Origin: Planoprotostelium fungivorum | Lineage: Eukaryota; Evosea; Variosea; Cavosteliida; Cavosteliaceae | Direction: 5' to 3' | Assembly (NCBI GenBank): GCA_003024175.1 | Contig: MDYQ01000108.1 | Span: forward strand, 1 to 64,000 | Length of the DNA stretch: 64,000 nucleotides | Part shown: positions 7,693 to 38,111 of the stretch, one piece after another | How positions within the stretch are numbered: position 1 is the first letter of the stretch | Layout: the number at the start of each line of letters is the position of its first letter | Notes under the pieces: model-generated | Databases searched by the model: none | What the model was told of the DNA's origin: nothing | The model's input: only the letters and a program-made list of their open reading frames with translations | Translations under genes and position numbers: made by a program

Positions 7693-10600
7693 ATGGACGA
7701 TGACCTGAACGACATAGACTTTGATCAATTGGATGCCATTTCGAAGGCCCAACTTGAGAACATTAACATTCCGAATCCTGCTGCGAAGACAGTCAAGAAG
7801 AAGACCGTAGTCAACACCATAATGAACACTAGATTTATTATCAAGAGCAAGAACACACAGTTGAGGTCTCCCATTAATCGAGGAACGAAGAAGAATGCAA
7901 AGAAGACCGAGGAGGAGGAGCAGAAGGAACCACCTGCGAAAAAGAGGAAGACAAAGAACATACAATACACGGCCAGCGATGGAAATCCTTTGATGGACGA
8001 AGACGAGGAAGAATCATTCAAGACAATGGCACAAAATCCGAAGACACCATTAAAGGACAAATCAAATGGAGTCGTTAGAGATCCTAATCAGAAATCTATA
8101 CCTGTCGCTGATCTGATACCTAAACCAGAGGAAGAGGTGAACGTCACATCACAACAATAATTCTGAGACAACATCAGGTCGATCGACTGATAGACGAAGA
8201 GGCTCTCAAGACATGGATTTATCCCAGTGCGTCATGCTGATATTCTCTCCATCTTCAACAGACACTGACATCGATACAGTGAACTACAACAAGAGAGAGT
8301 ATCAATACAGCATAGTGAAGGAAGCACTATTCAACAACACGTGCGTGGTCATTCCAACGGGATTGGGAAAGACTTTCATCGCAGCCGTGGTGATGTACAA
8401 CTATTGGAGATGGTTCCCCGACAGCTTCATCGTCTTCGTGGCTCCTACCAGAGCTCTCACTCGGCAGCAGATCGAAGCCTGCCAGAAGGTGAACTCTTCG
8501 AAATTTGAAGTTTCTGGATGTAATGCGAACAGATCGTGGGGATATCCAGCAGAGAATGCATCGACATGACGGGATCAGTACCTCCAGCCACGAGAGCAGA
8601 GTACTATCGCACTCGTCGTGTCTTCTTCCTCACATCACAGACCATCAACAACGATGTCACCACCGGAATCTGCGATGCGAAGAAGATCTGCCTCCTCGTT
8701 GTAGACGAAGCTCACCACGCGCAAGGAAATTCAGCCTACAGTAATTTGATCAAGTCGGTCGCCAGCCACACACGAAACTTCAGGATTCTGGCGCTCACCG
8801 CATCACCGGGGCACAACAAGATCATGATCCAGAATATGATCAACAATCTCATGATCTCACAGATGCAAGTCAGAGGAGAGGAGGACTCGGAGGTCAAACC
8901 TCACACCCACAACACGGTCATCGAGAAGGTGAAGGACCTTTCGAATCAAGTGGTGAAGGAAGCAGATCGTCATCTCGGTCAGTGCTCAGATGTCCCAAGT
9001 GAAAGAGGTAGCCCATCAGATCCTCCAAGATACGTTGGTCAAGCTCGTCGAGATGAAGGCATTCTATTCCACAGATCCAGGGGTCAGCCCCTACTCTCTA
9101 CACATTGCCAGAGGAAAGATGAGAACGGGTGGTAGCCGCGTTGCACCGGACATACAACCAGTTGCCATGGGTTATTTCGGCTGGGCCCACAGCATCGCTT
9201 CCGCCCTGCAGCTCTTGAGTTCTCACGGTTTAGCCTCCTTCACACAGCGATTGAAGAACATCCAGAAGGAGGCAGAGACGGGGACCGGGAAGATGAAGAA
9301 GAATTTCGTCAAGTGAGTGGATGATGATCGATGGAGGCTGACGCGATGAAGATCACAGAATTGGAAACAACTGTTGAGCCTGGCGGACGAGGTGACGGAC
9401 AGAGGAAACAATCATCCGAAGATCAACAAATTAGCCGAAGTGTTGGCGGAACATTTCACGAGACACGCAGAGGAATCGACCTCCACTCGTGCCATGGTCT
9501 TTGTTCAATTCAGAGATTCCGTAGAAGAAATCGTAGGTGTTCTGGGGAAACACGCTCCCCTCGTCAAGGCCGCTCCCTTCATCGGTCAGGCTGTCAGCAA
9601 GTGAGATTCTTCCTCAGACACGGATGACTCAGACGCAATAGATCAGGATCGAAGGGACAGAACCAGAAGGAACAGGGAAGAATCGTCTCCCAATTCAAAA
9701 CGGGGTTCTACAACACTTTGGTGGCCACTTGCATCGGAGAGGAGGGATTGGACATTGGAGACGTGGATCTCATCGTGCTCTTCGATACACAGAAGACACC
9801 CACGAGGAACATCCAGCGAATGGGAAGAACGGGAAGAAAGAGAGACGGAAGGTGTGTGGTGCTTCTCACTGAGGGAGCAGAAGAATCGAGCTACGAGCAA
9901 TCCATCATCAAGAGGGGTGTCGTGGGAGGGATATTATCCAAGCCACAGAAGTTCCAGTATTACAACGGGGAGGACTGCCACGTCATCCCTTTCGGTGCTA
10001 AGCCCGTGGAGGAACTGAAGCAATTGACCATAGAGAGTCCCAGGAGATTTGACATCTACACGGAGGGGAAGAGTGCAAGGGAGAGCAGAGGAAAGAAGAG
10101 AGGGAGAGAGGGTCTCCTCAACGAGGAGCAGATGAGATACCTGAGAGATCATTTCGATGGAGAAGGTGAATGAGAGATGAAGGAGAGAGCTGAAGAGATG
10201 AAGAGGTGGCATTGAACATCTACCAATGGGCGGGAGAGCAGAGCATAGCCACACCGATCTCCAATATCAGCCACTCCATCCACAGTGCGGTACTCATCAA
10301 CACGATACAATACATACAGAGCCATCCATCCGTCTACAACGAGCCAACATTGGCACCCCGACGACAAGAAGAGAAGACGGTGGTTGTTCCAGAGAGGAAG
10401 AGGGAGATCCCTAAGATGACCAAGATCCTCGTATCAGAGAAACGACCCGTCTCCGTGGACGATGACAGCTGGTTAGACCAACCTTATCACGCAGGAAGAC
10501 AAGAGGAGAAGGGGAAGGAGGGAGACAAGAGGAGAGAGGGAGACAAGAGGAGAGAGGAAGACAAGAGGAGAGAGGGAGAGAAGAGGAGAGAGGAAGACAA

Positions 10601-13269
10601 GAGGAGAGAGGAAGACAAGAGGAGAGAGGAAGACAAGAGGAGAGAGGAAGACAAGAGGAGAGAGGAAGAGAAGAGGAAAGAAGAAGAGAAGGGGAAACAA
10701 GCAGAGGGATTGAGACCGAAGAAGCTGTTTGATGAAGATCTGGAGGACATGGTCGAATGGATGGACGATCCCATCACACCCACCAACAACCAGCCCATCA
10801 CTCAGTCTGGACGGATCCTCCAGTCACCTCCGATGGATTCTTCCACAAAGAGTCAATCCACCATCAAACCAGCAGAGGAGAGAGAGGAGAGGATCAACTA
10901 CCGACTCTATCGATCCCCCAAGGACATGTATGGAGGGTATATTCTTCAGGTAGAAGGAGCAAGACAGACACAAGGACTGAGAATACCACCACCACCGATG
11001 ACCTTGAGGACCACACTTTTACCCAAGAATGTACAGAGGAAGGACGCGAAGAAAGAGACGAACACGGGAACAATCGACCTTCAAGAGAAGGAAGAGAGAA
11101 GACAGGAGGAGAAGAGGAGAGAGGAACAAAAGAGGAGAGAGGAAGAAAAGAGGAGGGAGGAAGAAAAGAGGAGAGAGGAAGAAAAGAGGAGGGAGGAAGA
11201 CAAGAAGAGGGAGGTGAAAAGACAAGAAGAGAAGAAGAGAGACGAAGAAAAGAAGAGAGAGGAGGCGAAAAGACAAGAGCAGAAGAGGAAAGACGAAGAG
11301 AAGAGAGAGGAAGAGAAGAAGAGAGAGGAAGAGAAGAAGAGAGAGGAAGAGAAGAAGAGAGAGGAAGTGAAGAGACAAGAGAAGATGAAAGAGGAAGAAA
11401 GAAGGAAGGAAGAGGAAAGGAGGAGGGAGCAGAAGAGGAAGATAGAAGAGGAAAGAACGAGAGAAGAGAGGAGGGCAAGAGAAGAAGAGACAATGCAGAT
11501 GGAGAGGACGAAAGTGGCTGAAGGGAAAAGGAGAGAGGAAGAGAAAAGAAAAGAAGAACAGAGTAGCAAGCAGGAAGAGAAGAAGGAGGAAGAGAAGAGG
11601 AGAGAGGAAGAAAAGAGAGTAGAAGAGAAGAGAAGAGAAGGAGAGAAGCAGAAGGAGAACGAGAATAGGATGGAGGAACACAAAGAGGAGAGAAGGGCCA
11701 CACAGGTATCAGATGATGGATACGACGCTGATTTATGGGATGCAATTGAACAGATGCAAGGTGAGTCTCACATGAAGTCTTTTACCTGATGATGAACAGC
11801 TGAACCACCGGAAGAGATCAGAAGGGAGGAGCCACCAAAGACGAAGATCACTCCACCGAAACCATCGATCAAGGAATCGAAGATATTCATGATGTTTGGA
11901 AAGAAGGAAGAGGAGAGGAAGAGAGAAGAGGAGAAGAGAGGAGCGATCGAAGAGGAGAAAGGAGAGGGAAAGAAGGAACATACAATCCATCCTATTCAAC
12001 GAGACAACGAAGAGAAGAGACAGGAGAAGAAGGAACAGAAGGACAAGGAAGAGAGGAAAGAACAGAAGGGAAAGGAAGAGAGGAAGGAACAGAAGAGGGA
12101 GGAACAGAAGAAAGAACAGAAGAGAAAGGAACAGAAGAAAGAACAGAAGAGGGAAGAGAAGAAGGAGAAGAGAGAGAAGAAGAGGAAGAACGTAGTCGAC
12201 GAGGATGATGAGATGCCACCACCAGAGCTGATTACAAGAAGAAAAGAGAAGACACCAGGTGAGAGAATGAGAGGAGAGAGAGAATGACAGAGGCAGAAAT
12301 CTCCTTCAGTCAGGCAATCGTACAGGAGCTATCCACACCCGAAGATACAAAGATGAAGAGACTGAAGAGATCAAACCAACACACGTCCACGGTGAGACGA
12401 CAAAGAGGTGAAGGTCTAACGTGTCTCAGATCAACTGGGAGGGAGGAGTGAAAGAGTACATGAAGAATCGGTGTTATTACCACCAATTCAGACTGGATGA
12501 CATCCTCTACTCCATTGGGGATACCATCGAATACTCCTCAGAGGACTCTCCCCGCCTCCAAGTGGGAAGGATCGTCTCCGTGTGGAACGAGACGCAGAGC
12601 AACGAGAAAATGATGAAGGTGAACAAGTATCTCCTCCCCGAAGACACGAAGAGGGGAAGGATACCCTCCCATCATCACGTAGACGAGGTCCTCCTATACA
12701 GCATCAACGATCACCTTCCCATCACGGAAGAAGATCCCATCGAAGACGAAGAGGCAGAACAGAGTGTCTCCATCCAATGCCCCATCACCCAAGTGAAGGA
12801 TGTCAATCGATGTGTGGTGCTTCCCTTCTACATGAAGAAGAAGATCCGACAGGCAGAGAGGAGTGGAAGGAAGGTGTATCGCTATCGATACCAATACTCC
12901 GTGTCGACCAACAAGACCGTCGACATCGTGGAGAAGGAGAAGAAGGGGACGTACCAGGAGTACGTGGACGATGAGGCAGGGGTGTCCGATGAAGAGGGAA
13001 GGGCATCGAGTGATGAAGAGGAGGATGACATCATGAACACTCAGTCGATGGAGTTTCTCGTGGACGATCAACACAACACGAGTGGGTTAGAGCCTTCTGA
13101 TAATCTGGCCATGTACAGGTGAGATGGAGGGTACATCTGTCGTGCTGATGAGTGCAGGATGTCGCTGTTCTCACAACCACCGGCAGAGTTGTGCAGGAGT
13201 CAAGTGGTGATCGACGAAGATGACATCATCATGAGCACCCCAGATTCCGATCACATCGAGGACGAATAA
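7693..13269 (+). CDS. FANCM: FANCM/Mph1-family DNA helicase with BAH-like domain and Lys-Arg-Glu repeats
   Basis: An SF2 DNA translocase that remodels stalled forks and branched DNA in the nucleus. After an acidic-basic leader, a KTWIYPN block joins a core with PTGLGKT (8353-8373), [27 protein letters not shown] (about 8698) and LALTASPG. This order is diagnostic of FANCM. Helicase C carries [21 protein letters not shown] and QRMGRTGR (about 9820). A very long KRREE-type low-complexity section follows (10500-12190). A BAH-like fold comes next (about 12480-12780: [29 protein letters not shown]). Then comes an acidic [10 protein letters not shown]...FLVDD segment like the conserved FANCM C-terminal motif, and the stop at 13267-13269. 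No ERCC4 nuclease domain is visible. Phase-compatible short introns link all segments, for example donor 8142 and the CAG before 13158, so I treat it as one gene. Confidence 0.85.
10498..10692 (+). repeat. 18-bp tandem repeat coding for (D/E)KRREE units in FANCM
   Basis: Units of ACAAGAGGAGAGAGGAAG follow each other almost without change. Each adds six residues and keeps the frame. The array should form a long charged single alpha-helix or coiled coil. Confidence 0.85.
11090..11680 (+). repeat. Second, more diverged KREEEKR-coding repeat block in FANCM
   Basis: A purine-only stretch built from AAGAGGAGAGAGGAAG-like units, with Arg-Arg-Glu-Glu-Lys repeats and several local 18-bp duplications. 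The opposite strand gives long Ser-Leu-rich open frames that are shadows of this repeat. Confidence 0.8.
12010..12190 (+). repeat. Third charged repeat block ([10 protein letters not shown] units) in FANCM
   Basis: Tandem GAACAGAAG-rich units encode Lys-Glu-Gln repeats. They end before the acidic [11 protein letters not shown] linker that leads to the BAH-like domain. Confidence 0.75.
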
Positions 13270-13363: not shown

Positions 13364-14105
13364 TTAGTTATCTTCATCTATTTGCTGGTTGATCGTTACG
13401 GCTTCTTTCAACGCTTTTCGAACTTCGAAACCCTGAAGAGATGAGCTCTCATTGAATCGTTCTACCTCACTCGAACCACTGACTGGGCGTATTGGATGAG
13501 GACATCACGGTCAGCCTGTGTAAATCGTCTCGGTCTCTGGTCCATGATGCAGAGAGTTCCCACATTACAGCCGTCGATGGCCAGGGGAACACCCGCGTAG
13601 AATTTGAGATAGGGTGGATTAATGACGAAGGGGTGATTTTCGTAGTTGTCAGCAACGGACATGTCTGATGAGGTTCAATGCCAATAGATCTGGATGATAA
13701 TCACCTTCTATCACGTTGATATTTTGCCCAAGTATCGTATAGCCGCAGAACAGTCCCTCCCGCGGGCCCTTCATTTCAGATTAAGAGGAGCTTTGTCTCA
13801 GCATCTGACTCACTTCTATTGGAAAGTTTATGACAGACTTGTTGAAATATCTGTTCGAATCAAGTAAACAGATCATGGAGTAAGGAACATCGAACAACTT
13901 CTGAACGATAGAAACGACACCATCAAAGTATTCCTCAAAATCCGTGTCTAGTAACTGCATCGAACCATTCAATCGAACTTTAAAAGGGATGTATGATACT
14001 CACCTCCAGAGAATTTAACATATCCATCCTCTCTTTCTCATTTAGAGGATCTGGAGCTGGTATAAACTTGGGTCTCTGTGGGCTGGTCGGCTGCTTATCC
14101 GCCAT
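13364..14105 (-). CDS. GAF-domain protein, copy 1
   Basis: A small single-domain protein of bacterial sensor type. The first exon starts MADKQPTSPQRPKFIPAPDP at 14105. The next exons give a GAF fold: FDVPYSMICLLDSNRYFNKS, then NPPYLKFYAGVPLAIDG and GTLCIMDQRPRRFT. These are the usual blocks of the GAF subfamily found before kinases and cyclases in bacteria, but no effector domain follows. The short tail ends QQIDEDN. A small-molecule sensing role is inferred. It is convergent with FANCM (94 bp gap) and sits head-to-tail with a close paralog at 14381-15182. Confidence 0.8.
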
Positions 14106-14380
14106 CTATCTGCGGGACCTTTGGGCAACAGCGACGGCGAGACGGCTCTACAATGCTCCGTTGCACGCCGTCTGCTGTCAAATATCACCAAGATTGACCC
14201 GCTGCAGCCACAGAACAGAGCAATATATTCAGACACACAATTCTTAGTCATGCGTGGTATTAAAATGCATCACTCTCTCCTTCAAACGGAGGAGAGTTCA
14301 CTCTAAACATCTATTACATCATCGTCTATCCAAGTCTCTTTGCATCCATCCAATGCATCCAATTATATCCTCACATTCGA

Positions 14381-15182
14381 TCATTCCTCATCTTCATCTT
14401 CATCCGATTGCTGACTGATTTCGATGGCCTCTTTCAACGCCTTTCGCATTTCAAAGCCCTGAGGGAATGAGCTCTCACGTGATATCCTTTCGTCTCACTC
14501 GAACTACCGACTGGGCGTATTCCACGAGAGCATCACGGTCAGCTTGCGTGAACCTCCTGGGTCTCAGATCCATGATGCAAAGGGTCCCCACATTACAGCC
14601 GTCGATGGCGAGGGGGACACCCGCGTAGAATTTGAGATACGGTGGGTTGACGACCAAGTGATGATTCTCATAGTTCTTGGCCAAAGTCATATCTGATGGG
14701 ATTCAATGCGAATAACTCGATGAATTCTTACCTTCTATGACATTGATGGTTTCCTTGAGGATTGTATAGCCGCAGATGATTCCCTCCCGTGGCCCCTCAT
14801 TCAAGTTAGCTCGTGAGAATTGAGCTCTAACTCACTTCCACTTGGAAGTTTATGACGGATTTGTTGAAATATCTGTTCGAATCAAGTAAACAGATCATGG
14901 AGTAAGGAACATCGAACATCTTCTGAACGACAGAAACGACACCATCAAAGTATTCCTCGAAATCTGTATCCAGCAGCTGCATTGTTCAATTGAACCTTCT
15001 TTCAATCACTACGATATGCTCACATCCAAAGAGTGCAACATCTCCATTCTCTCCTTCTCATTTGGTGGGTCTGGAGCAGGTATGAATTTCGGTCTCGCAG
15101 GTGCGATCGGGTCCCCCATAGATAAATGTCTATCTATCCCCGGTCCCTTCAACGGAAGCCACTCGTTATGAACTGTCCTCAT
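14381..15182 (-). CDS. GAF-domain protein, copy 2
   Basis: A close paralog of the gene at 13364-14105 with the same exon pattern. It has the same YFNKSVINFP-type segment, NPPYLKFYAGVPLAIDG, GTLCIMDLRPRRFT and a Lys-Glu-rich C-terminal helix ending in an acidic DEDEDEE tail. Its N-terminus is longer (start at 15182, MRTVHNEWLPLKG) before the shared RPKFIPAPDP block. The two copies are very similar at DNA level across the GAF exons, including stretches without changes near 13840-13940 and 14860-14960. This points to a recent tandem duplication. No effector domain is present. Confidence 0.8.
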
Positions 15183-15264
15183 CTACAATGATCACGCGTT
15201 GACTGCCAAAGACCTCCATGGCTCATTTCTTGCGGATTTATTCAAACATAAATTTACTTTACAA

Positions 15265-18200
15265 TCATACAACAGAATCAGTGAACGGGTGAACCATGTT
15301 GGGGTGGTGAGAGACGGGAGCGTAGATCACATCCGATGGATTGTACTCAGAGACGTCACTATATAGAGCAGGTGCCTCCTGGCCCGTCGATGGCGGCGAT
15401 ACATCGGGCGTATTCGTCGAGGACAGATCAGGTATCAGCTTGTGCAGTATCTGTGCAAAGGTGGGTCTCTCCTGAGGATCCGTCTTCCAAGAAACTGGCT
15501 CTCTCTTCAGTTCGTCTCTCTCTCAGATAACTCACGGTTCATGATGACCGACAGATCTTCCGGTGTATCCGATGGGGGCGTCAGTCGAACACCCTCCCGA
15601 ACCACTTGCATGGCTGCCTCCACCGGTCCTAGATCTGGGAATGGATCTTGTACCGTCAAGATCTCCCAGATGACCACACTGGGTGAGGTCAGAGGGTGGC
15701 AAGTTGTAGAGACTCACCCGAAGGAGAAAACGTCGCTCTTTCTGGAATATTCTCTGTTCACAATGGCCTCGGGTGCCATCCATTTGATGGGACCCACGGT
15801 GGTCTGTGTTCTGAAGATAGAGTGAGATGAATTTCATTTGTAAGATGCTCACTGTGAAGCCGACTCCGGATCAGCGTTAGCCGTTCTTGACAGTCCAAAG
15901 TCAGACACTTTAGGAATCTACAACGATCAGCATCGATGATGTTAGAATTAGATATCACCATCGTCTCAGTCAATAGAATGTTTCTCACGGCCAGATCTCT
16001 GTGAATGATCTGGCAGTTGTGAGATGTGATGTATTGAATGGTGTCCTCACGTTCTCCTTGTGCAAGTGGAGCATTCCTCTGGCGATACCCACGATGAAAT
16101 GCATCTTGACCTCCAGTTCACAGTCAATCTTTCGCAGATAGCTGTACAGTGAACCGTTCTGACAGAATTCCCTTCGATCTTTCAGCTCACGCCTTACCCC
16201 TCCTACTCACGTTACGATGGATGTGGGGTCTGGATGAACCAATAAACCTGTTCCATCATCAACATTCGACTCATGATGCATCGTGATGAAATGAGGACGG
16301 ATCGTCTTCTCACCGATCAACAAGATGACGTTAGGATGGGGTCTCAGTTGCTATTTTTTCTTTTAGAAGAGGGAATGTACGCATCTCACCTGTAATAATT
16401 CCACTTCGGCTACAAACTCTCGCATCTCCTTCTCATCCGCATTCATGTTCTTCAATTGTTTGATGGCCACGTGCATCTCTCTCCACTTTGCACTACATCG
16501 CATCAGTCTCAATTCATTTCATCTACAGATGCATGCGATGCTTTTGAGATGTGCAGACGAATCACCTGAAGACGACACCAAAAGCACCGGAACCGATCTC
16601 CCTGAGATCACTGAACTCGTCGGAGCTGAGTTTGAACTTGCTGTTGATGTCGAACAATGGAATCTGCCTCCTCATACCAAAGATGTCCTTCTTCATCCTC
16701 TGTTTCCTCACCACCAGCAGTAACACCGCCACTCCGATGACGGCCACCACAGCCACCACAATGATCGCAATGGCCCAGCCAGGGAATGTGCTGGACGAAG
16801 AGGTGGGGGCAGCGCTGGTGGGTGTGGCAGATTTGTAGATGGTGTAATCCGTCATGTGGTTGCAAGAGCAGTAGACGAGTCCGTTGCTGACGGACAGATG
16901 ACAGGTGTCGTCCTTGACGAAGGGGAGGGTGTAGTTCTGTCTCGAAGCGCAGTAGAGACCAGAGCCCGTGATGGATCCCATCAGTAGGGTGATGTTGCTG
17001 GGAAGATTGGAATGTTCTCCGGGTGTCATGGTGACAGAGATGACAGGTGAAGAGGCGTTTCCCTCCGCGACGGGTGTGGTGGGACCCCAATAGATAGCCC
17101 TGACGTTGTATCTCACTGATGATGTCAGTGACAGGTGACAGATAGGTGACACACCTCCGGTCTGTAAGACGGTGGAGGGGATGTTGATGGTTCCATTGGC
17201 GGCGACGAGAACAGATGGAGATGTCTGTAGGGTGGTGCAGGAGGTGTAGATGCCCAGAGATGAAGTTGAAGCGGAGACGAAAGAAGAATCGCAAGTGCGA
17301 TTGTAGAGGAGATTGTCCATCACCTTCTCCACGATCTGTACGATCGTTCAGAGAATGAATGAGATCTCAGAGGAAACTCACGTAACGGATGGGAGTGACC
17401 CACTGGTTGTCTGTTCTCTTCTTCTGAGCTGTTCCAGAGACGGAGAGCATGGCAGATAATGTATTCACCGCTTGCAATGCGAAATCTCCACTGTAGGTCT
17501 AAATCGATGTGAGCGAGAGAGATTCACGTGCGATTCACCTTGTCCGAATTAGAGGACATCATGTTGGTGAAGGACGTGACCAATTTGCTGAGAGGACATG
17601 TGTTATCTTGACACAACTGGGCCATGACGGCCGTTCTCAATGTGGCCTCCGTGTTTCCCATACTCTGCGTGGAGGTATTCAGCAGCACCGTAGCCATCTG
17701 ATTGATCAACTGTGTCTTCTCCGTGGTGCTGGAGGTAGATTGCTGAATGGTCAACAGTCCTTGAAGATATCCCGTGGTGGATGTGGTGTCCTGCATGTCA
17801 CTGCACTTGCTGATGGCCTGCGCTTGTGAATTGGCCGTGATGGTGGAGTCTACGGTGAGCATCTGAGATGTGCTGATAGATGCGCTGTGTCCTCTGGCAT
17901 CCGTGGCGGTGACCGTGAACTGAACATTGATGGCAGATGCTCCGTTGGTCTGAGAAGAGACGACGACTACACAGGGAGGGGTGGTGGAGTTGGTGGTGGA
18001 CCAGATGACAGAAGTGGTGGCTCCATCAGGGAGGTAGGAGTAGGTGTATTGTAGAGGAGGGGAGAAGGTGGTCCACGAGCTGGTGGTGAGGATCATGGAT
18101 GTACGCCCTATCACGGCCGAGGGAGGACCCAGAATGATGCTACCTGGTTCACGTCAGTTCTGAGGAACAGGTTTCATTTGGATGAAACTCACCAGGGGAG

Positions 18201-21092
18201 GGGGGTAGAGAAGCTCGGAGAGATTCTTTGGTCTCGTTGCTCAGCAACCTCTTGGAGACGTAATCGGAGAGGACGGTGCTACGATCGAGATTCCATATAG
18301 CTCCCCCGGCGTAATTGTTCAAGATGGCATAATTCATCTTGATGTCAGCCAATCGTTTATCTTCGTAAGAGACCACTTGGGTTCCATCCGTGCTGACCAG
18401 ATAGGGTGTGCTGGTGTAATAATCCCACATCGCCATCCATCCGTTCGTGTTGGCCAGCTGCATCACATCGATGTGATACAATGATCCCTGGTCGCGTCAG
18501 AAGAGAAGACGTTCTCTATGTCTCACCACTGAGGCACCGCATGTACCCGAAATGGGGAGAGGATTCTGAGTGGTGGGGTTGTTCAGGAGATATTTGTGGC
18601 TAGCCGCCACATTCGTTAAATCGACACTGAACGATAGACCAAAGTTGTAGAATGACATGAGGGTCTGAGAGGGTCAGAAATTTAAGAGATGGAATGTACC
18701 TTGTTGGTGGGAACACCCAATGAAAGATAGGTTTCGAGATTATCTCTCTGACACCCGATGTTGGCGTAGGTCGCATTCCAAGCACAGCTACCGTCTGTGT
18801 AAGAACTGAATAATCCACCCGCATAAGCGAAGCCGGACACACTGAAGAGGTCCACTGTCGCACGTCAGATCGAATCGATCGATCGAAGATCTTCACCATA
18901 TGGAACTGAGGGACTCATCCATCTTCCCTGAGATGGAGTCTGGGAGCCTTCAGTGGTGGTGATCAGCACCAGAGTGTTGTTCTGATATCCCGTTAGATAC
19001 GTACATTGAGTATGTACGCTCACGTGAATCGTGGCGTCCGCTTGTATCGCAGAACGAAGGGCGATGAAAATCCTGTGATCGTTCGTCGGGGCTTTGAGGT
19101 GGCTACTCCTGAGAGAGTTGAGGAGATGTTGGGAATGACATCTCACCAGAAGATATCGATTCCATCAAAATTCCACTTGCGGGCGAAGTTGACCGCATTC
19201 GTTGCGAATAAATCGAAAGATTTTGAATTGTTGTTCGCCGAAAGTGCATTGTAATACGAGTCGCTGTTAGAAGCCGATGATCCGATGGAAATCTGATATC
19301 ATTCAATGGAGAAGGAAAGGAGAGACGTACCAAAAGTTTGAGACCGGGGTTTCTCTTTCTCAGAATCTGAATCTGTGAATACCAAGCCAATTGATCGTTA
19401 GCAGTGGCCAGAACGTTGTAATTGGAGTCGATGTCCGCGTAAGAGATGGAGATGTGGGTGTACAGTGTTGTGTCCACGTACTCGGGCGGCACACGGCAGG
19501 CCGAAGAGAGTTGGGCGATTTCAGACACGTAATATCCCAGTACCACGCGGTGGTTGACATTGGGACCCAATGTCGTCTCGAAATCGGGGACGTTGGGGTC
19601 TGCCACACAATCTCCGTTGGCGCATGCGCTGCCCAGACAGTACTGATCACCTCTCCCACAGCTGTCGGACGTCAGAGATGGGACAGTGGGATGACTTACT
19701 ATCCGTAGGTGGAGCAGCAGGGACCGGAAGAACTGTCTGCACATCCCGTTTGAATACAAGAGAGTTCTTGGGTGGATGGAGGGGTGAAAGTGGTGATGGT
19801 TCTGTTGTTCGAGACGGCCGAGGTGGTGGTGGTGATAGTCTTCGTGCAGCCAGAATAACAACCGTCGACGCAGTGAGCGGTGGTGTTTCCGCAGCTGAGA
19901 GAAGGTGAGAGGAGGACATGGAGAGGGACTCACTATCCGTGGGTGGAGCAGCAAGGCATCGTTGGGTCCGGACAACCGTCGATCATGCATCCGGTCAGTG
20001 TCGTTGTGGTCTGCTGGCAACCCGAATAACAATATTCACCGCAGTGGAGGGTAGTGCTACCACAGCTGAGAGGATCATGAGAAGATGGAGACGGTGAATG
20101 ACTCACAATCCGTAAATGGAGCAGCAGGGGCCCTCGGTGGAGCCGGAACAGCCGTTGGGATCGATGGCACATCCAGAAAGAGTGGTCGTCACGTTGGAGG
20201 TGGAGCTCTGGAGAGAGGTAGAGGTGGTGGAAATTGTGCTCTTGGTGCTAGATGACGTCAAGGCCATGGAAATTGTGCTCTGGGTGCTCGATGACGTCGA
20301 GGCCGAAGTATGTGAGCTTGTGGTGGTTGATGATGTTTGAGATGTTGTCGCAACGGTAGATGAAGTTGTGGTGGTGACGGATGGTGATGATGTGATTGAG
20401 CTTGTGATCGTCGTGGAAGGACATCCAGAGTAACAATTCTCTCCACAGTGAGCAGTGGTATTACCACAGCTGTTTGAGATCAGCGATGAGGTCGAGATGG
20501 AATTAAGGTAGACTCACTATCCGTATAGCGAACAGCAGGAGCCCTCGGTTGAACCGGAACAGCCGTTAGGATCTACGGTACATCCAGTCAGAGTGGTCGT
20601 CACATTCGCTGTCGTCGGCGCGGTAGAAGTACATCCTGAATAGCAATATTCTCCGCAATATGCATCGGTATGACCACAGCTGCGTTGAATGAGTTGAGAT
20701 TGGAATCATATATGGCTCACTATCCGTAAATCGAACAGCATGGACCATCAGGATAGTTAGCACATCCAGTGGGGTCTATGGCACATCCAGTCAAAGTGGT
20801 CGTCACATTGGCAGATGTAGCGGATGTCGTTGTGGTTGATGACACTGTCGAGGTTGTAGAGGGACACCCAGAATAACAATTTGCTCCACAGTAAGCGTCG
20901 GTACTTCCACAACTATCTCATGTTATACCAGTTCTAACACGAAAAAACTCACTATCCATACATGGAGCAGCAGGGACCATCAGTTGACCCCGTACAACCT
21001 TGGGGGTCCAGAGCACACCCACTGAGAGTCGTGTTCTCAGCGACAGTGAATTGAAAGAAACAGAATACGAGGAAGACAGTTGACCATCGCAT
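15265..21092 (-). CDS. Chitin-binding receptor kinase: six ChtBD1 modules, degenerate GH18, GAIN/GPS-like, TM, TKL kinase
   Basis: A predicted type I plasma-membrane receptor. A signal peptide (MRWSTVFLVFCFFQFTVA, start 21092) precedes six hevein-type chitin-binding modules (about 19640-21050), each with PCCSxYGYCG and CYSGC-type cysteines. A Ser/Thr-rich linker separates modules three and four. A complete GH18 fold follows (about 18200-19640: RVVLGYYVSEIA, FDGIDIFW, GGAIWNLDRS). The canonical DGxDxDxE signature is altered: the last Asp is Phe, and Ser replaces the catalytic Glu. A REJ/GAIN-like region ends in a GPS-type VYCSCNHMTDY (about 16850). Next are one membrane helix (WAIAIIVVAVVAVIG) and a kinase with GSGAFGVVF, VAIK, HRDLAVRN, DFGLSR and GPIKWMAPEA. 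All catalytic residues are present, and the group is tyrosine-kinase-like. The gene is divergent to a chitinase. I infer that it senses fungal or other chitin. Confidence 0.85.
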
Positions 21093-21586
21093 GTTGTGAC
21101 TGACTTTGAAGCTTCTGGTGGAACTGGTCATTCCTCTGGTCCGAGTAATCGTCCGTGCTCTATCCATGGATGAGTTTCCTCCTTTGATGGTGTTCCTGTG
21201 TCTGAAGCCAAGAAATGCTTGTGACGGATGACCGCAGTCAATGCTCAGATTCTTTGAGAGGGCTTTTTCCGTCCGGAGAATTGGAGACATGAAGATGGCG
21301 TAGAAAGTTGTTAGGCGTGTCAATACCCAGCTGGAGCTAGAAGTCACAGTTTACTGGGAACGCCACTCCGCATATACTCAGCTTTACTCACAACACGCCT
21401 TTCGCCTGCTTATCATTTCATAGAGGAACGCCGTCGCGTCAGACTTGTCGATGATGGAGAGCGGACCTTTAAAATATACGTGTCGTATACTCGAAGATGT
21501 CCCTGCCAACTTGTCCTGGTATGACACCGACATCCGTGGCACTTGCTAACGCTAGAGCTCATTTCTCCCGAAGCAAGGTTCGCAAC
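21093..21586. promoter_or_regulatory. Bidirectional promoter region between chitin receptor and chitinase
   Basis: This 494-bp gap separates the divergent starts of the receptor kinase (minus) and the chitinase (plus). An AT-rich TTTAAAATATAC at about 21470-21481 is a TATA-like candidate for the chitinase. Short open frames on both strands extend the coding frames upstream, but they lack signal-peptide character before the chosen starts. Shared regulation of the pair is plausible and not shown. Confidence 0.45.
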
Positions 21587-23333
21587 ATGAAGCTCGCTGC
21601 AGTGTTTGTACTTCTACTCGCCTCTGTGGCCGCTGATTATACACTCCCCTCTTCCGTCAACTGTGCTGGTACCACCTACACCCCCGCCTCGGGTCTCTGC
21701 TGCTCAAATTATGGATAGTGAGTGATCACCACGAAAGACATGCGCTCACATCACCAGCCCAGGAAACTCTTCGGCCTACTGCGGAGTGGGTAGCTGTGCA
21801 GGAGGTAGCTGCGGGTTGACTGGGTGTCACCTCACCGGTTGCCCCACTGGACAGTGCTGTTCACAGTACGGATAGTGAGTGCTGGTCTTACGTCATGTCC
21901 TCGATTCCCGTGCTGAAGCATCTCAGTTGTGGTGCCTCGGCTGGCTACTGTGACCCCGCCAACCGATGCTTCAGCAAATGTTGGGCAGCGGCACCCTCTT
22001 GCTCTCCTGTGTACGTGGCTTACTTTGCCAATTACAAGTCTCAATACGGTGCCAACGGTGGATGTGGTTTCATACCCGAGATGGTGAGCTTCACCTCACG
22101 TTCGACAGCAGCGTGACCTTTCGTAGATCCTTCCCACCCAGAAGTACACCCACATCAACTGGGCATTTGCCAGCTTCGACGGCTCTACCGGAATCATCGC
22201 TGATCTTTCTGCTTACGACGCCAACATGGTCTCCAGACTGATCGCCCTGAAGGCCAACAACACAGCCCTGAAGATCATCGTAGGTCACGATCGCATGAGA
22301 TGAGACTGACCTTGGATAGGTATCGCTGGGAGGTGGTGGCTTCGGTTCCGCCCCTTGGACGAATCTGATGGGCAGTGCTAGCGCACAGAACGCCTTCTTC
22401 TCCGGACTCAAGGCTTGGATCCTCAAGTACAAATTCGACGGAATCGACATCGACTGGTGAGATTGCACATCATTCATCATGATGACGTGTTCAGGGAGTT
22501 TCCTACATCCGGACAGACGGCTCTCGTGGCCACTTTCTTCCAAAAGGCAAGAGCTGCCATAGGAAACGACCTCTTGTTGACCGCAGCCACCGGAAACAAA
22601 TATTACAATCAGTTCTACGCCCCCGAGAACTGGATCCAATACGTCAACTTCCTGAACGTGATGAACTACGATTACTACTACGGAAATGGTGGCGTCACCG
22701 GATCTGATGCTCCATTGTACGGTCAGCAGAACTCCGGCAGCATCAATGCTACCATCAACGATTATTTCAATAGAGGTAAATCCTTTCCCTCTCCCGTCTC
22801 ATCTCTATCACAGATGTTCCAGCCCACAAGTTGGTGTTCGGACTTCGTAATTACGGATACATCTTTGCGGTGAGCCCTGTCACCCACTAGGCTCCACGTT
22901 GACACGAATGCAGGTGAACAGCAACACCCCTACCACCGGAATGGCTTTCAGTGGCTTATCCACTTACAAGACTCAATGCGCTGGTGCAGGTTCCTTGTCC
23001 GCCATCGACGTCACGACCCTCTTGACCAACTCCACCAAATCTGCCACCCAATTTTCAGTCCAGTGGGATGATTCCACCAAGGTACACTTCATCTGAGCCT
23101 TGTCCTTGCTGACGATGACTAGTCCGCCTTCGCCACCTGGCCCAACAACTACGCCACATTCGAGACGACGGCTTCGATCAAGGCTAAAGTGGATTACATC
23201 AAGGATTACGGACTTGGTGGTGCCATGCTCTGGATCCTCGACTCCGATTCCACCATCGCCGTGAGTCACCATGAAATCATCGATCAGGACTGAAAGATGA
23301 AAGGATTACATCGGAAAGCAGCTCAACTGGTAG
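21587..23333 (+). CDS. Secreted GH18 chitinase with N-terminal chitin-binding modules
   Basis: Hydrolyses chitin outside the cell or in phagosomes. The start at 21587 gives the signal peptide MKLAAVFVLLLASVAA. Two hevein-type modules follow (about 21640-21990, CCSNYGYCG and CCSQYGY with CGASAGYCD). The GH18 barrel (22010-23333) has AYFANYKSQYG, INWAFASFDG, KIIVSLGGGGFGS and FDGIDIDWEFP. In the last motif the catalytic Glu lies just after an intron near 22457-22495. NYDYYYG and GGAMLWILDSD complete the barrel. All family signature residues are present, so it should be active. Five or more short introns have consistent phase. An upstream ATG at 21497 would add a leader without signal character and was not used. 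Confidence 0.9.
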
Positions 23334-23416: not shown

Positions 23417-25558
23417 TCAGAAGGAAATCTCCTCCATATCTGGATTTCTCTCCAAGAAGGCAGCTTTCTGCCTGGACACCGTTGGGCTGTCCTTCTTTGT
23501 CATCAACAACGCTGCATCCATGTTCTTTGGTGACAATTGAAGGGAAGTGCTGCGCATGTGACCTCTCCTCTTTGGTACCTGTTGATGATCAATATCTACA
23601 CTTCTCCTTTCTCTCTCACATCTAAATTTCCAGAGTTCTTTCGTGGTGTCAACTGTGATAAGGTCAGGTACACGATGAGATTCATTCAATACTCACCGTC
23701 TCCATAGAACTAGTGTTACGTGGCTGATTCACCAGTCAGACGTTAAAGAGAATCGAAACATCTCACCTTCGAATCGTTCAGCTCCAGGTGCTCGTGATGC
23801 GATAACCCATTCATCGATGGTGATCTGAAAAAGTCAGCACAGCAGAGAGGAAGAACACACTTTTTCATGAGGCTCTGCTCGGAGGTTCTTTCCTCTTGAA
23901 CGTCTCCCATCTCAGGCGTGGGAGGTGATATCGTTGGGGTGACGGCCAAGAGAGACAAGACGTTGTTCTTCTTCTCTTCCTTCTTCTTTCTCCTCAGAAC
24001 GCTCTCGTCAGGTGTTGCCGCGTTAAACTCGGACTCGGTGACTTGTGGTGGTATGATCTCTGGTGTCGCAGGGATGACCTGAGATTACATCAACGAGGGG
24101 TGAGTACGTGTACGCACCGGAATGGGGTCTTTGGCGCCACCGGCGGGAGGGAAATAAGGTAACATGGATCTGTCTAATTCATTCGGGTCGTACATCTGTA
24201 TGGGTAATGAAACGGATGCGCTTCCCATGAAGACAGACAATTCGACTGTCAGCTCGTAATGTCTCTGGATCTGTTCATCTTTCAGTCTCTGTTCATCTAC
24301 AGATATTTTGGTGATGGAGAAGGCGAGAGAAAAGGATGAACGAAAAGGAGACTGACCAGAGTACCGAGGGTAATGGAAGGATCGGTATCGTTGGGAATGT
24401 TCAACAACAAATCTCGATAGACGAAAGCGGGAGGCTCTGTCGTCTGCTCTTCGAGTGCCGATGTGACACCCATGAAGGACTAGCTCTCATCAGATGAGAT
24501 CTTTCATCTCCACTCACAGATGATCTCCTCTGCTGCATCTCCCCCTTTGCGTTGAAGATGACAGTCTGAAACACGGTCATGGTGATGGTGTCCAACTTTT
24601 TCCTCGGTCCATTCTGAATTTCCACGCGTAGCGGTAGATTTCTCCCTCTGAAGGCAACGGGTCCACGCGGTAAAATCACCTTGAAATTGAGGGTGCCCTT
24701 TGTGAACAGAAAGGTCTTATCGATCTGCAGATTCCGCAGATCAGATCACTCGATCGTCATGATGATGATGGACACCTGTTTCGTGAGAGGCTCCATTCTA
24801 GCGTAGCTGGGATCTAATCTCTGCGTCACTCTGAAAGTTCGGAAGAATTTGAGACCGGCAGAATCGGCGGGAACGTCAGTCTCTACCAAGAGAGAGACGG
24901 AGTAAGTTATATTTGGCTTATCAGAGTACAGCGTCTGTGGTAAATATCCTGAAATAATCAATCGAAAGAACAAAGGAGGACTCACCGATTGCGGCCTCGA
25001 TTTGGGGGAGATAACGATTTACGGTCTCCTGCTGATCGTGGAAGGAGGCTGGGATGTCTGAAGGGAGGACCCATTCGAATGGCCAGCTGTGCGATCCCTC
25101 GTCGAAAATTCGATCGTCTGCGATGGAGGTGTAAAAGTGGGGTTACGATCGATTGTGATATGTGTGGATAATGATGATTTGTAACTCACCGACTTCGCTC
25201 TCTGGTTCCCATAAGACATGATTCTTCGTGAATATGAGACGCTCTGCGGATACTTGTTCCCCATTTGGTTTTGTCCACCCGGTATGCTCCACTCCTAATC
25301 CATATCATCCAATGGAGGACGAGAGATAAAATCACCCTCCCAATTGAGGTAGATGCGTTTCACTCCTTGCAATTCCTTTTGAAGAACCATAGCCGCAACT
25401 GATGATGCATCAGAGACATCTGGAATTGCCCGAAGGTGACAATACAAAAAGAAATCACCTCCATAGATGGGCTGTCCAGACGTAAAGATTGTTCCATCCA
25501 GGGAAAGAAAGCCATAGTTCTGGAGCGGACGTGAGGGTGTGACATAGACACTCGTCAT
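23417..25558 (-). CDS. Arrestin-domain protein (ARRDC/alpha-arrestin-like)
   Basis: A cytoplasmic adaptor of the arrestin fold, a family that links membrane cargo or receptors to trafficking and ubiquitin ligases. The N-terminal lobe has GQPIYGGDFFLYCHL and a VKRIYLNWEGDF strand pair (25330-25500). Later exons give KVILPRGPVAFRGRNLPLRV followed by IQNGPRKKLDTITMTVFQT (about 24570-24690), the typical arrestin C-lobe opening. A Lys/Arg-rich tail exon after a GTGAG...CAG intron (23644-23689) ends at 23417. The start is tentative: an ATG at 25558 begins a good exon, but an in-phase exon near 25625-25670 may precede it. Its 5' end faces POT1 only about 160 bp away. Confidence 0.7.
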
Positions 25559-25720
25559 TCTCTGTTCGCTTGTGAGTTTGGAGGATAGATACGATTTATT
25601 GTCTCACCTCGGTTTGAAGAGATGATTCAGTGATGCTGATGACTCGAAATCCAGCGAAATTCAATTTCTGCAGTTAGCGGTACAACAACGAGACAACTCA
25701 CATCCCGCGCAATTCAAAGC

Positions 25721-28998: not shown

Positions 28999-30840
28999 TT
29001 ATACATCCGACAGCGTCTGGATGTCCTCCGGTAGCATGTTCCTCCGTCTAGCTTGTTTGAACAGAGCCTCAGCCTCTCCCACTTTTCCGTGCTGTCGCAT
29101 CAAGCTCAACGCTCTCCTCATCTCCTCCGGTGAAACGGTGATAGTATCTGCTTCTGCCGCCTGCAGTATCTGTCTGATCCTAGGTAGAGATCTACCCTCT
29201 ACGTCCTCCCTGCAGAGGGCACCCATTATGATGTCGTAGCCCCTCTTCAGTACGTCCTTGTCCATGTACTTCCTCCCCCGGCTGAAGAACCTGACGATGC
29301 TCTTGGCGTCCATGCACTTGTTCATCTCCTCCAATACGATGGGATAGCACTCCCTCCTCTCCTTCTCTTCCGCAGTGAGGATCAGCTCGGCTGCCTTCTC
29401 GCACCACTTTGCGTCTCCGTCTTTCATGAGCTGTTTGAGACGGATCCAGCTCCGTATGGACATGGTCTTCCCCTTCATGTGGAAGTCTTCGATGACTCGG
29501 TTGATCTTCTGTCTCTCTCCTCTCTCCTGCAGGCACTCGATGGCCGTATCGAAGAACCCCGGGTACACTTTGGTGTCCGTTGAGACGATGTCTTCGTAGT
29601 ACTTCCAGCCCAGTTCAGAGGATATCTTGAAGAACAACTTGAGGTGGATGTGAGGCGGAATGCCGGGGTTGTTCTGGATGAAGCTCTTGACCAGGGAGAG
29701 GGTGCCCTCCAAATCGATGAGTAAGCTGAGGGTCTCGTCGAGGTCGTTGGGTTCTCTGAATTCCGGGCGGTTGTCTTGCATGTCGCGTAAGATGAGTTGG
29801 ATCATGTCTCGATGATCGACTGCGACGGCGGAACGGAGGGCGAGGTACATGAGGCGACCGTCTCTCCTGTGTTGCGGTGTAAGGTCTGTATACCGTAGGA
29901 GGATCTGGTCGTATTCCCTCTTGTCCATCAGAGCCGTGAAGTAGCACTTGAAAGAAGCCACGTCTTGCAATTCCTCTACCCCCTCGAACATCTCGATGAT
30001 CTTGTCATTGTCTCTCGTAGAGGAGTTGATGGAAGAGATGAGGTTCTGTTTCCTTCGAAGGTCCACCGAGACGCTCGATTTCTTCTTTGGAGGGGGTGAG
30101 GTCTGAGTGGCCTTGGGGATGGCTTCATATTGCACTCCTCTCGCCTTGAGTAAGTCCTCGTAGATTTTGGCCTTCTGGAAATCCATGATCTGACGGTACC
30201 TCTCGATCATGACCATCATCACGGGCTCGCTCTGCACTCCGAGATGTTGGATGAGGTTGGTGAACAGTTCGGCCTTTGCGATCTCTTTCTTATTCCAGTA
30301 GTTCTCCACGATGCTGATGTATGTATCTGAGGGGACGACCAGCCCGTTTTGGTTCAAGATCTTGACCGATTGCCAGAAGGAGCGTGTTGGACCCACTTGG
30401 GAGAGGTAAAGAAGTTGATTGGTAATGTCTGAGGAGGACAGACTCTTTCTCAGTGTTGGATCGCTGATCATCTTCTGAAACAAATTGAGATTCTCCTCTC
30501 GATTGTTCTGTATCTTGAGGGACTCTAAGACGGCTGCCAGTGTTGTTCCAGAGTACTCTGATTCCTTATTTGACAAGTAGAACTGTGTGATCGCGGCCGC
30601 TCGTACTTCTGGAGTTTTGGTGGAGGTGCGATTAATCAGTAGCAGCAATGCATCATCATCTTTCTTCGGTCTCGTGTTGGCAGACGAGATGACTGGTTTA
30701 GAGCGTATTGTCTCGAGGGCCTTTCTCAGATCCTGTGTGTTGACCGTTGTTCGAGCCGGTAAAATCGATGGTGGTGGATGTAACCTCTGTACGACGGCTC
30801 TTCCAGGATAGGCAGCCAGCCTCTTGCAGAGGTGCAGCAT
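28999..30840 (-). CDS. PPR-like helical-repeat protein, probably mitochondrial
   Basis: An intronless 613-codon frame. From the chosen ATG (30840) the N-terminus MLHLCKRLAAYPGRAVVQRL is basic, hydrophobic and free of acidic residues, as in mitochondrial presequences. A longer frame upstream to 30936 is less protein-like. The rest is a series of paired helices of about 35 residues (for example TYISIVENYWNKKEIAKAELFTN and MVMIERYRQIMDFQKAKIY in pieces), matching pentatricopeptide or related organellar RNA-binding repeats. The target RNA cannot be told. The lack of introns is unusual here. It is divergent to the LRR-pseudokinase gene (131 bp gap). Confidence 0.65.
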   Translation of the reverse strand: MLHLCKRLAAYPGRAVVQRLHPPPSILPARTTVNTQDLRKALETIRSKPVISSANTRPKKDDDALLLLINRTSTKTPEVRAAAITQFYLSNKESEYSGTTLAAVLESLKIQNNREENLNLFQKMISDPTLRKSLSSSDITNQLLYLSQVGPTRSFWQSVKILNQNGLVVPSDTYISIVENYWNKKEIAKAELFTNLIQHLGVQSEPVMMVMIERYRQIMDFQKAKIYEDLLKARGVQYEAIPKATQTSPPPKKKSSVSVDLRRKQNLISSINSSTRDNDKIIEMFEGVEELQDVASFKCYFTALMDKREYDQILLRYTDLTPQHRRDGRLMYLALRSAVAVDHRDMIQLILRDMQDNRPEFREPNDLDETLSLLIDLEGTLSLVKSFIQNNPGIPPHIHLKLFFKISSELGWKYYEDIVSTDTKVYPGFFDTAIECLQERGERQKINRVIEDFHMKGKTMSIRSWIRLKQLMKDGDAKWCEKAAELILTAEEKERRECYPIVLEEMNKCMDAKSIVRFFSRGRKYMDKDVLKRGYDIIMGALCREDVEGRSLPRIRQILQAAEADTITVSPEEMRRALSLMRQHGKVGEAEALFKQARRRNMLPEDIQTLSDV

Positions 30841-30971
30841 GACACCGTGATCGTAAGTGATGTGATGTGATTTGTTAAGATGACCCGATGTTGGGTTGTA
30901 GAGGGGCAAGGCTTGTTTCTCTGTGACACACCGCACGACACCTGCAGAGCGGATGGTATTACAGAGGGAGA

Positions 30972-36686: not shown

Positions 36687-36722
36687 ATATGTTTATGTTT
36701 ACCCTTCTCTCACGTCGCTCTC

Positions 36723-38111
36723 TCACATCGTCAGACCGGGCTCAGCCACGTAGAAGAACTGTTTGATGACGCTACTGGTCTGGCCGTCTGAGGGCAAGAA
36801 ATAGACGAAAGGCTCGCCGTTCAGCTTGTCCTTGATGTTTTCCAACGCTTCAGCCAGACCACTGGTCTCCGGATCACTCTCAGCCGTGTTGATTTCGATG
36901 CCGATGACAGACTGTCCCACAAATTCGTTCGATGCGGCACGATGCTCCGCACCAAAGATTTCGATGGCGTTTCTCTTCTCTAATTTCACTTCTTTTGTCT
37001 GGTAGACCACTCCTTTCTGTCCATTTTGAGGGTGGTGTTCATTTCACGTTGGTACTCACTTGGATGCTGTGACAGAACCACAGGGCGGCTTCAGTCGATG
37101 TGGCCTTGAATAATGCGAATGCACTCTGTCGACAGAGATTCAGGATGGTCAAATCTTATTCTCTCACATGTGGATGAGGTCTGGTTCGGTTGATTCCGTA
37201 GGTGAGAGGAACGATGGAGGGGACGTCTTTCAGCAAGCTACCTTCTGTGTATGTGCCGAAAGAACCCTCAGGTGGAAGGTTTAGAAAAGGCTTGGGGATA
37301 TCATTCTGTGAATGATGAGGATCACGTTTACATACAGCTAGATCTTGAACTCACGTTAGAGATGAGACGGTATGATTCGCTGGAGTTATTGAAATCAAAC
37401 ACTGAACTCCAATCATTGTTGAATGGACTCAATTTGGCACTCCCAAAGAGTCCTATAAAGGTTCGATTGATTGCTTTCTTCAACCCTCTCACCCAGTAAC
37501 TCAGTGAAGTTGTATTGGAAGCAGCTAATCCTCAAATCCTTGGTCGTTTCCAGTGAGGGTTTGGTGAAGCAGAAGAGCATCATGTCGGTGTCAGTCAGGT
37601 CGCGTGTTCTTTCAGCTCTTCAGCTCTCCTGACGTTCACGTTCATCTCACCTCAACTGCTGACAAGCAACCACCACCCGACAAGCAGTTGATTCCCTCAA
37701 GAAGAAGCTGAATTCAATAAGCTTACACCTTGATTGAAAGGGGATACCTTCCATTGACGGGGCCGATGAAGAAGCGGCAGTTTTTGCAGCCATCGATACT
37801 GACCGTATCGGTGTGGTCGAAGACGAAGATATCACAATTCTAAATTTGAATTGGATGAAGGATCGGAAGCCATCGATGATGATCTCACCTCGCAGTCTTC
37901 CACAACAAATTGTTTTCCATTCAAGCTCCTTTGAGGAACCAATCAGTTCAACGAAAGGAGGGTGGACTCACCCAGGCTTCCGAACGATCGTTGCATCTTT
38001 CTGTTTAGTCACCTTGAAGTCCTCCGTGTTCGTCTTAACCTTTTTATCCCAAGAGTACTGCTTAGGCTCCTCCGCTTTTTTTGTTTCCTCCTTTGAAGAG
38101 GCGCAGCCCAT
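36723..38111 (-). CDS. RP2: RP2/XRP2 homolog, ARL3 GTPase-activating protein
   Basis: Stimulates GTP hydrolysis by the ciliary GTPase ARL3 and so releases lipidated cargo at the cilium base. The start at 38111 gives [11 protein letters not shown], a dual acylation signal as in human RP2. [11 protein letters not shown] follows, then the TBCC-like beta-helix: [29 protein letters not shown] and [23 protein letters not shown] is split by an intron (37600-37680) and keeps the arginine finger. Next is [12 protein letters not shown]. The C-terminal part (36723-37240) matches the NDK-like domain: [10 protein letters not shown], then [19 protein letters not shown]. At least seven short introns join in phase. 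The gene is convergent with the LRR gene (36 bp gap) and divergent to the TFIIS-M gene. Confidence 0.88.

Follow-up and report, generated by a model that had tools for sequence, protein, structure and literature searches.

A pseudo-chitinase receptor kinase, probably a chitin sensor, encoded beside a predicted chitinase in Planoprotostelium fungivorum

We propose that two divergent genes within a 64,000-nt stretch of Planoprotostelium fungivorum DNA (contig MDYQ01000108.1, forward strand; hereafter the window) encode a chitinase that is secreted and a receptor kinase that spans the membrane once and senses chitin, a reading of the predicted proteins that we hold with moderate confidence. The receptor gene (REC) lies on the minus strand, with its ATG at 21092 and its stop codon ending at 15265, and the chitinase gene (CHI) lies on the plus strand, with its ATG at 21587 and its stop codon ending at 23333. 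The REC protein begins with a signal peptide assigned by eye, followed by six hevein-type modules joined by Ser/Thr-rich linkers, a pseudo-GH18 domain, a juxtamembrane region of about 440 residues, a membrane span, a kinase and a short tail. CHI consists of a signal peptide, two hevein-type modules and a GH18 domain; its N-terminus passed the hydropathy scan, the signal peptide being otherwise judged by eye.

Several observations counted for the chitin-sensing reading: the Pfam matches that exceed curated cut-offs, the sugar-site residues kept in hevein modules 1, 2 and 6, the catalytic residues lost in REC and kept in CHI, the presence of the VAIK, HRD, DFG and APE motifs in the kinase, and the precedents of plant GH18-kinases and CBM18-kinases and of amoebozoan single-span tyrosine kinases. 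Furthermore, the single open frame, together with the sharing of one exon by the GPS-like element, the membrane span and the glycine loop, counted in its favour. A first-pass annotation had described two divergent genes with 494 bp between their starts, and its coordinates, strands and spacing all proved exact. The features discussed are as follows, with residue numbers from the first hand model.

15265..21092, minus strand: REC gene, hand-spliced as one open frame and supported by Pfam; 24 exons and 1,610 residues in the first model, probably 25 and 1,596.
21587..23333, plus strand: CHI gene, 10 exons and 455 residues; Pfam GH18 at 184.7 bits, with alignments.
21093..21586, no strand: interval of 494 bp between the divergent start codons of REC and CHI.
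19607..21017, minus strand: six hevein-type (Chitin_bind_1/CBM18) modules of REC, from Pfam (72.2 bits, six stretches), the module list and intron phases.
18284..19537, minus strand: REC pseudo-GH18 (Pfam envelope 437-790), 113.1 bits in the full protein, with chitotriosidase and CHI alignments.
19105..19166, minus strand: degenerate catalytic motif DGIDIFWS of REC, from the hand model and alignments.
17539..18143, minus strand: exon 13, modelled at low confidence (mean pLDDT, the predicted local distance difference test, 53.3) as a beta-sandwich and then helices.
16835..16951, minus strand: GPS-like element CASRQNYTLPFVKDDTCHLSVSNGLVYCSCNHMTDYTIY (1190-1228), from a best Pfam match to GPS below the cut-off and a motif count.
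16709..16780, minus strand: single membrane span GWAIAIIVVAVVAVIGVAVLLLVV (1247-1270), from the hydropathy scan.
15436..16603, minus strand: protein kinase domain (Pfam envelope 1306-1554), PK_Tyr_Ser-Thr at 253.4 bits, with PDB scores.
15268..15429, minus strand: C-terminal tail of REC, in which three tyrosines occur (YSDV, YNPS, YAPV), from the sequence.

Gene structure

Both genes were spliced by hand, guided by short GT-AG introns and by the continuity of motifs. Most of what automatic splicing produced for the REC region was set aside in favour of the hand model because numerous exons were implausible, and a rough gene finder run over the window fused neighbouring genes and was used for context only. 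The first hand model of REC places 23 introns of 35-73 nt between its exons, and that of CHI nine introns of 38-52 nt, each with a continuous frame; retention of an intron leads to a frameshift or a stop for 22 of the 23 REC introns in this model and for all nine in CHI. A further REC intron is likely at 19023-18982 (42 nt, in frame and without a stop), as it is excised by both automatic models and coincides with a gap in the alignment to other GH18 domains. With this stretch removed, the REC GH18 piece gains in Pfam score (118.4 to 122.5 bits), and its BLAST scores increase from 60.1 to 66.6 bits against CHI, from 60.5 to 65.9 against human chitotriosidase and from 71.6 to 80.5 against a bacterial GH18. 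Because excision raises the Pfam score and all three BLAST scores, 19023-18982 is probably an intron, and the predicted REC protein is probably the 1,596-residue product of 25 exons, which we refer to as the refined model; residue numbers beyond 582 in the first model are 14 too high if this intron is real. Seven more in-frame GT-AG candidates lie inside exons, six in REC and one in CHI.

Two of the REC introns would, if variably spliced, alter the protein. Splicing as against retention of 19023-18982 would yield GH18 forms differing by 14 residues, and retention of intron 18192-18144 would bring translation to a stop some 14 codons past the GH18 exon, leaving a soluble chi-lectin as a possible decoy form.

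GH18 domains and hevein-type modules

Active GH18 chitinases carry the motif DxxDxDxE, which includes the acid/base Glu, together with MxYD. CHI has both motifs, in a GH18 domain that far exceeds the Pfam cut-off of 29.6 bits, and is best described as a chitinase with intact active-site motifs and predicted activity. When the two domains are aligned with human chitotriosidase, DGIDIFWS in REC stands against DGIDIDWE in CHI, and SGFA against MNYD, such that REC lacks four catalytic residues, two from DxxDxDxE (the acid/base Glu and the third Asp) and two from MxYD (Tyr and Asp); the Trp of AIWNLD, close to the end of the barrel, is retained. The Trp codon of DGIDIFWS is split by a phase 2 intron (19146-19109), as is likewise the case in the CHI gene, and in an automatic model that uses a later acceptor the motif is DGIDIFWI instead, the catalytic Glu being missing in either model. 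Judged by these motifs the REC GH18 domain is catalytically dead, and the first-pass description is borne out in that a pseudo-chitinase receptor kinase has as its neighbour a chitinase whose active site is intact in its motifs.

The hevein-type modules join the GH18 domain in both proteins. Chitin_bind_1 exceeds its Pfam cut-off of 27.8 bits in REC (72.2 bits over six stretches) and in CHI (37 bits over two), in agreement with the first-pass view that both ectodomains are built from the same module families. The sugar-binding site known from hevein structures comprises a Ser and three aromatic residues, all of which are kept in REC modules 1, 2 and 6. All six REC hevein introns fall at phase 2 in the codon after CCSxYG or CCSxHG, and with both CHI modules included the same codon is cut at the same phase in eight of eight modules. 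In the Ser/Thr-rich linker between REC modules 3 and 4 a 39-bp unit occurs twice (20228-20304, 92% match), which may indicate a linker of variable length.

A shared origin of the pair by duplication had been suggested at first pass. Calculated with the refined model, identity in the GH18 domain is 80 of 318 positions (25.2%; 66.6 bits) for REC and CHI, 74 of 321 (23.1%; 65.9 bits) for REC and chitotriosidase, 75 of 260 (28.8%; 80.5 bits) for REC and one bacterial GH18, and 101 of 314 (32.2%; 142 bits) for CHI and chitotriosidase. The first model gave 24.1, 23.0, 28.8 and 32.8% in the same order (60.1, 60.5, 71.6 and 142 bits), and 80.9 bits for REC against CHI with composition adjustment off. 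This comparison reveals no special bond between REC and CHI, because the identity of REC to chitotriosidase and to the bacterial GH18 is similar or higher, and a recent duplication of the two domains is not supported, the REC-CHI value being hardly above that of REC with chitotriosidase and below that of REC with the bacterial domain. Of the six REC and seven CHI introns in the aligned GH18 domains, two interrupt the same codon at the same phase (columns 79 and 127), a coincidence with a chance of 0.0007 under random placement (0.0004 for the first model, with five REC introns), the weight of which is limited by the choice of splice sites partly for module continuity. These exactly coinciding positions fit an old common ancestor of the REC and CHI domains, and shared intron positions may also be old in all GH18 genes. 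A shared origin is therefore weakly favoured by the two common GH18 introns and the phase 2 hevein introns, and a duplication that was recent or specific to this locus finds no support in an identity of 25.2%.

Among the 50 rows listed for the REC GH18 domain against solved structures, chitinase-3-like protein 2 stands seventh at 62.6 bits and is outscored by active chitinases, with up to 72.8 bits. Pattern scans with the CHI GH18 domain over prokaryotic and viral contigs returned 29 matches and one match, respectively, none of them a relative.

Kinase domain and juxtamembrane region

The REC kinase has a complete set of motifs, with a GSGAFG glycine loop, VAIK, HRDLAVRN, DFGLS and PIKWMAPEA, and its PK_Tyr_Ser-Thr match, like the GH18 and Chitin_bind_1 matches of REC and CHI, exceeds the curated Pfam cut-off. 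The first-pass annotation had assigned an intact tyrosine kinase-like (TKL) kinase to this protein; the catalytic motifs are indeed all present, and it is the label TKL that does not sit well with the tyrosine-kinase signatures HRDLAVRN and PIKWMAPEA. REC carries the receptor tyrosine kinase signatures HRDLAxRN and P-I-K/R-W before APE, which, allowing for an equivalent of APE, are also seen in the Eph, EGFR and Src-Abl sequences aligned with it. Among the best 60 of 255 matches to solved structures, a set crowded with tyrosine kinases such that ranks are biased and best scores less so, the reconstructed Src-Abl ancestor scores 187.5 bits, the best Eph 183.4 and the TKL kinase CTR1 162.4; the top row is an EGFR construct in which the kinase is present twice, its score being the sum of two 126-bit matches. 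The kinase looks, from its signatures and scores, nearer to tyrosine kinases than to plain TKL kinases. The three tail tyrosines fall within 14 residues and are possible phosphotyrosine docking sites.

The stretch of about 440 residues that separates the REC GH18 domain from the membrane was absent from the first-pass annotation. It contains CSCNHMT shortly before the membrane span, within the GPS-like element. In a 55-residue segment, picked after the motif had been noticed, GPS is the sole Pfam family listed (E 0.0035; 18.3 bits, under the curated cut-off of 22.5), and none of nine controls (eight shuffles and the reverse) matches GPS, their best match of any kind having an E of 0.037. GPS is also the top Pfam match in a 91-residue segment (E 0.0083) and in the 435-residue region (E 0.031), and the pattern C.C.H[LMIV][ST] occurs once in the 127,996 six-frame residues of the window, at this element. 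The usual GPS has two Trp and belongs to a GAIN fold with a helical part A and a beta part B; the REC element keeps the four Cys and HMT, and both usual Trp are missing. We call the element only GPS-like because its Pfam score is below the cut-off and the single-exon structure models are unusable as proof; the protein is not filed as a GAIN receptor, and autoproteolysis is put forward as a hypothesis.

Exon 13, as modelled, is possibly the start of a GAIN-like region. Foldseek with this low-confidence model gave no match at E<=0.001, the best being a phage coat protein (E 0.0056), and chains of polycystin-1/polycystin-2 complexes (E 0.27-0.47, probability <=0.13, among 50 of 695 matches listed) were not counted. 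Pfam found no family in the beta-sandwich segment, and a PDB sequence search with the 435-residue juxtamembrane region gave no match at E<=10. Residues 1240-1275 are the only stretch of REC to pass the hydropathy scan, and the exon 17335-16566 holds the GPS-like element, the membrane span and the glycine loop of the kinase together.

A model for the receptor and chitinase pair

The model that most reasonably fits these observations makes REC, probably, a chitin sensor. The hevein modules and the dead barrel of REC would hold chitin or oligomers of N-acetylglucosamine without cutting them, and this binding would cluster the receptor. Once clustered, the kinase would phosphorylate itself and its own tail, leading to a cellular response such as attachment, engulfment or enzyme secretion. 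CHI would digest the same material and may free oligomers that REC then reads. More tentatively, cleavage at the GPS-like element, between HM and T, would let the ectodomain be pulled off, such that REC might also respond to force or shedding. Extended to its full form, which we regard as possible and rather doubtful, the model describes a non-animal receptor tyrosine kinase with an autoproteolytic GAIN-like domain, whose non-covalently held, chitin-gripping ectodomain is tugged off to turn the kinase on, and which would thereby read the chemistry of a target as well as its stiffness or motion, beside an enzyme that digests that target.

A number of observations weigh against this model. The N-terminus of REC failed the hydropathy scan, so that its signal peptide is a call by eye alone. 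In GH18 domains the Tyr and Asp of MxYD contribute to positioning the sugar, and because both are lost the REC groove may bind another ligand or nothing. Three of the six hevein modules are altered, with His in place of the last Tyr in modules 3 and 4 and two His in module 5. An activation-loop Tyr is usual, if not universal, in receptor tyrosine kinases, and there is none between DFG and APE in the REC kinase. Finally, in addition to falling below its Pfam cut-off, GPS is not listed at E<=1 in the scan of full-length REC, and the single-exon models are poor, with a mean pLDDT of 53.3 for exon 13 and 34.8 for exon 15.

The same sequence evidence would serve equally for a sensor directed at the host itself, in which REC monitors chitin or related glycans of the cyst, spore or stalk wall and CHI remodels that wall. 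Some protists build chitinous walls, and nothing in the window indicates prey, the fungal prey proposed at first pass included; we nevertheless judge this reading unlikely. Less likely again is that the ectodomain serves mainly to tether chitin-bearing particles as an adhesive or phagocytic anchor, with the dead GH18 domain as a lectin or spacer and the kinase secondary or a local recruiter of the cytoskeleton. The long Ser/Thr-rich linkers and several binding modules do resemble an adhesin, and adhesion receptors typically carry GAIN/GPS elements (PMC12716839), but none of the kinase motifs examined is degraded, which argues for signalling. That hand splicing fused two neighbours, a secreted chi-lectin and a GPS-kinase receptor, is very improbable: the join of exons 12 and 13 (intron 18192-18144 in the first model) is the weakest link, since read-through meets a stop about 14 codons on, and a first model that left one likely intron in as exon is fallible in its details, but this intron is a typical 49-nt GT-AG intron, exon 13 starts without a signal peptide by eye, and the GPS-like element, membrane span and glycine loop all lie within a single exon.

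Genomic context

The window has a G+C content of 48.8% and genes broken up by numerous short introns, in eukaryotic style; no tRNA was found in it. We judge the 494-bp divergent spacing to be ordinary for so compact a stretch, and as evidence for co-regulation of REC and CHI it was set aside as weak. When both proteins were compared with the window by tblastn, the only match outside the two genes was a kinase stretch at 33650-34057.

According to the rough gene models, REC is directly followed downstream by two similar GAF-domain stretches in tandem on the minus strand (about 13467-15220), the first identified by Pfam and the second by eye. An arrestin-like gene on the minus strand (about 23417-25703) has its modelled end 84 bp from the CHI stop codon, tail to tail. 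Further along, at about 30689-37691 on the plus strand, a large predicted protein has leucine-rich repeats and a kinase domain (Pfam, first 907 residues), then armadillo-type repeats by eye; with HRSIKPRN as its catalytic loop and DYG in place of DFG, it may be a pseudokinase. Our impression is that GAF, arrestin and LRR-kinase neighbours such as these would suit an amoeba. A perfect 21-bp repeat in 5.5 copies (35736-35851) agrees with a YFISSSP unit that recurs in one of the rough gene models, and purine-rich tandem repeat arrays lie at 10493-12190.

Comparison with known receptors

Chitinase-type domains and hevein modules have been fused to kinases in plants, and a comparable design seems to have arisen in a protist, with a domain of the tyrosine-kinase type and an element that is GPS-like. 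If its ligand is chitin, REC is a candidate receptor for chitin recognition by a microbial eukaryote and would provide a handle on how such cells distinguish the surfaces of fungi or cysts from other surfaces. Were a GAIN-like switch to act on the kinase, the known uses of the GAIN domain would be wider.

REC, as modelled, resembles tobacco CHRK1 and other plant GH18 receptor-like kinases in combining a GH18-type ectodomain, a membrane span and a kinase in one protein, and differs in its six hevein modules, its GPS-like juxtamembrane region and the tyrosine-kinase signatures of its kinase. CHRK1 is not known to have hevein modules or such a region; it may lack the catalytic Glu, which would be at odds with the enzymatic prediction of a review cited below. 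Plant receptor-like Ser/Thr kinases bear the signature HRDLKxxN, where REC has HRDLAVRN, with PIKWMAPEA, and we consider that REC would work like CHRK1 without filing it as a member of that group. Chi-lectins such as chitinase-3-like proteins 1 and 2 are soluble animal proteins with a GH18 fold that lacks the acid/base Glu; the REC domain likewise lacks this residue and is instead part of a kinase receptor.

The accessible text of that review, on plant lectin receptors, reports 91 plant sequences that join GH18 to a kinase, naming CHRK1, the ectodomain of which is considered predicted enzymatic (PMC5485988). It also describes kinases from Marchantia that carry one CBM18 module or four, which are like REC in joining such modules to a kinase and differ in that the kinase is of the plant type, GH18 being unmentioned in that text (PMC5485988). 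Within the Amoebozoa, four full-consensus tyrosine kinases, three of them with one span, are reported from Physarum and 21 tyrosine kinases from Acanthamoeba; the Physarum kinases are like REC in single span and signatures, and the accessible text does not mention chitin modules for their ectodomains (PMC4758236). The GAIN domain is older than holozoans, and kinases are fused to seven-transmembrane receptors in amoebozoans, oomycetes and choanoflagellates (PMC12716839, accessible text). In the GPS-like motif that closely precedes its membrane span, with HMT and four Cys, REC is like GAIN/GPS receptors (adhesion G protein-coupled receptors, polycystin-1), and the TDYTIYK that follows its putative cut may be compared with the tethered-agonist consensus TxFAVLM given in the same text (PMC12716839); unlike these receptors, REC has one span and a kinase instead of a multi-span domain and scores below the Pfam cut-off.

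Literature searches pairing Protostelium with chitinase, and joining GPS domain, receptor tyrosine kinase and choanoflagellate, gave no match, and a receptor with this set of parts was not met in the literature searched, the reach of which excluded most subscription papers. GH18-kinases, CBM18-kinases and amoebozoan receptor tyrosine kinases are each already known.

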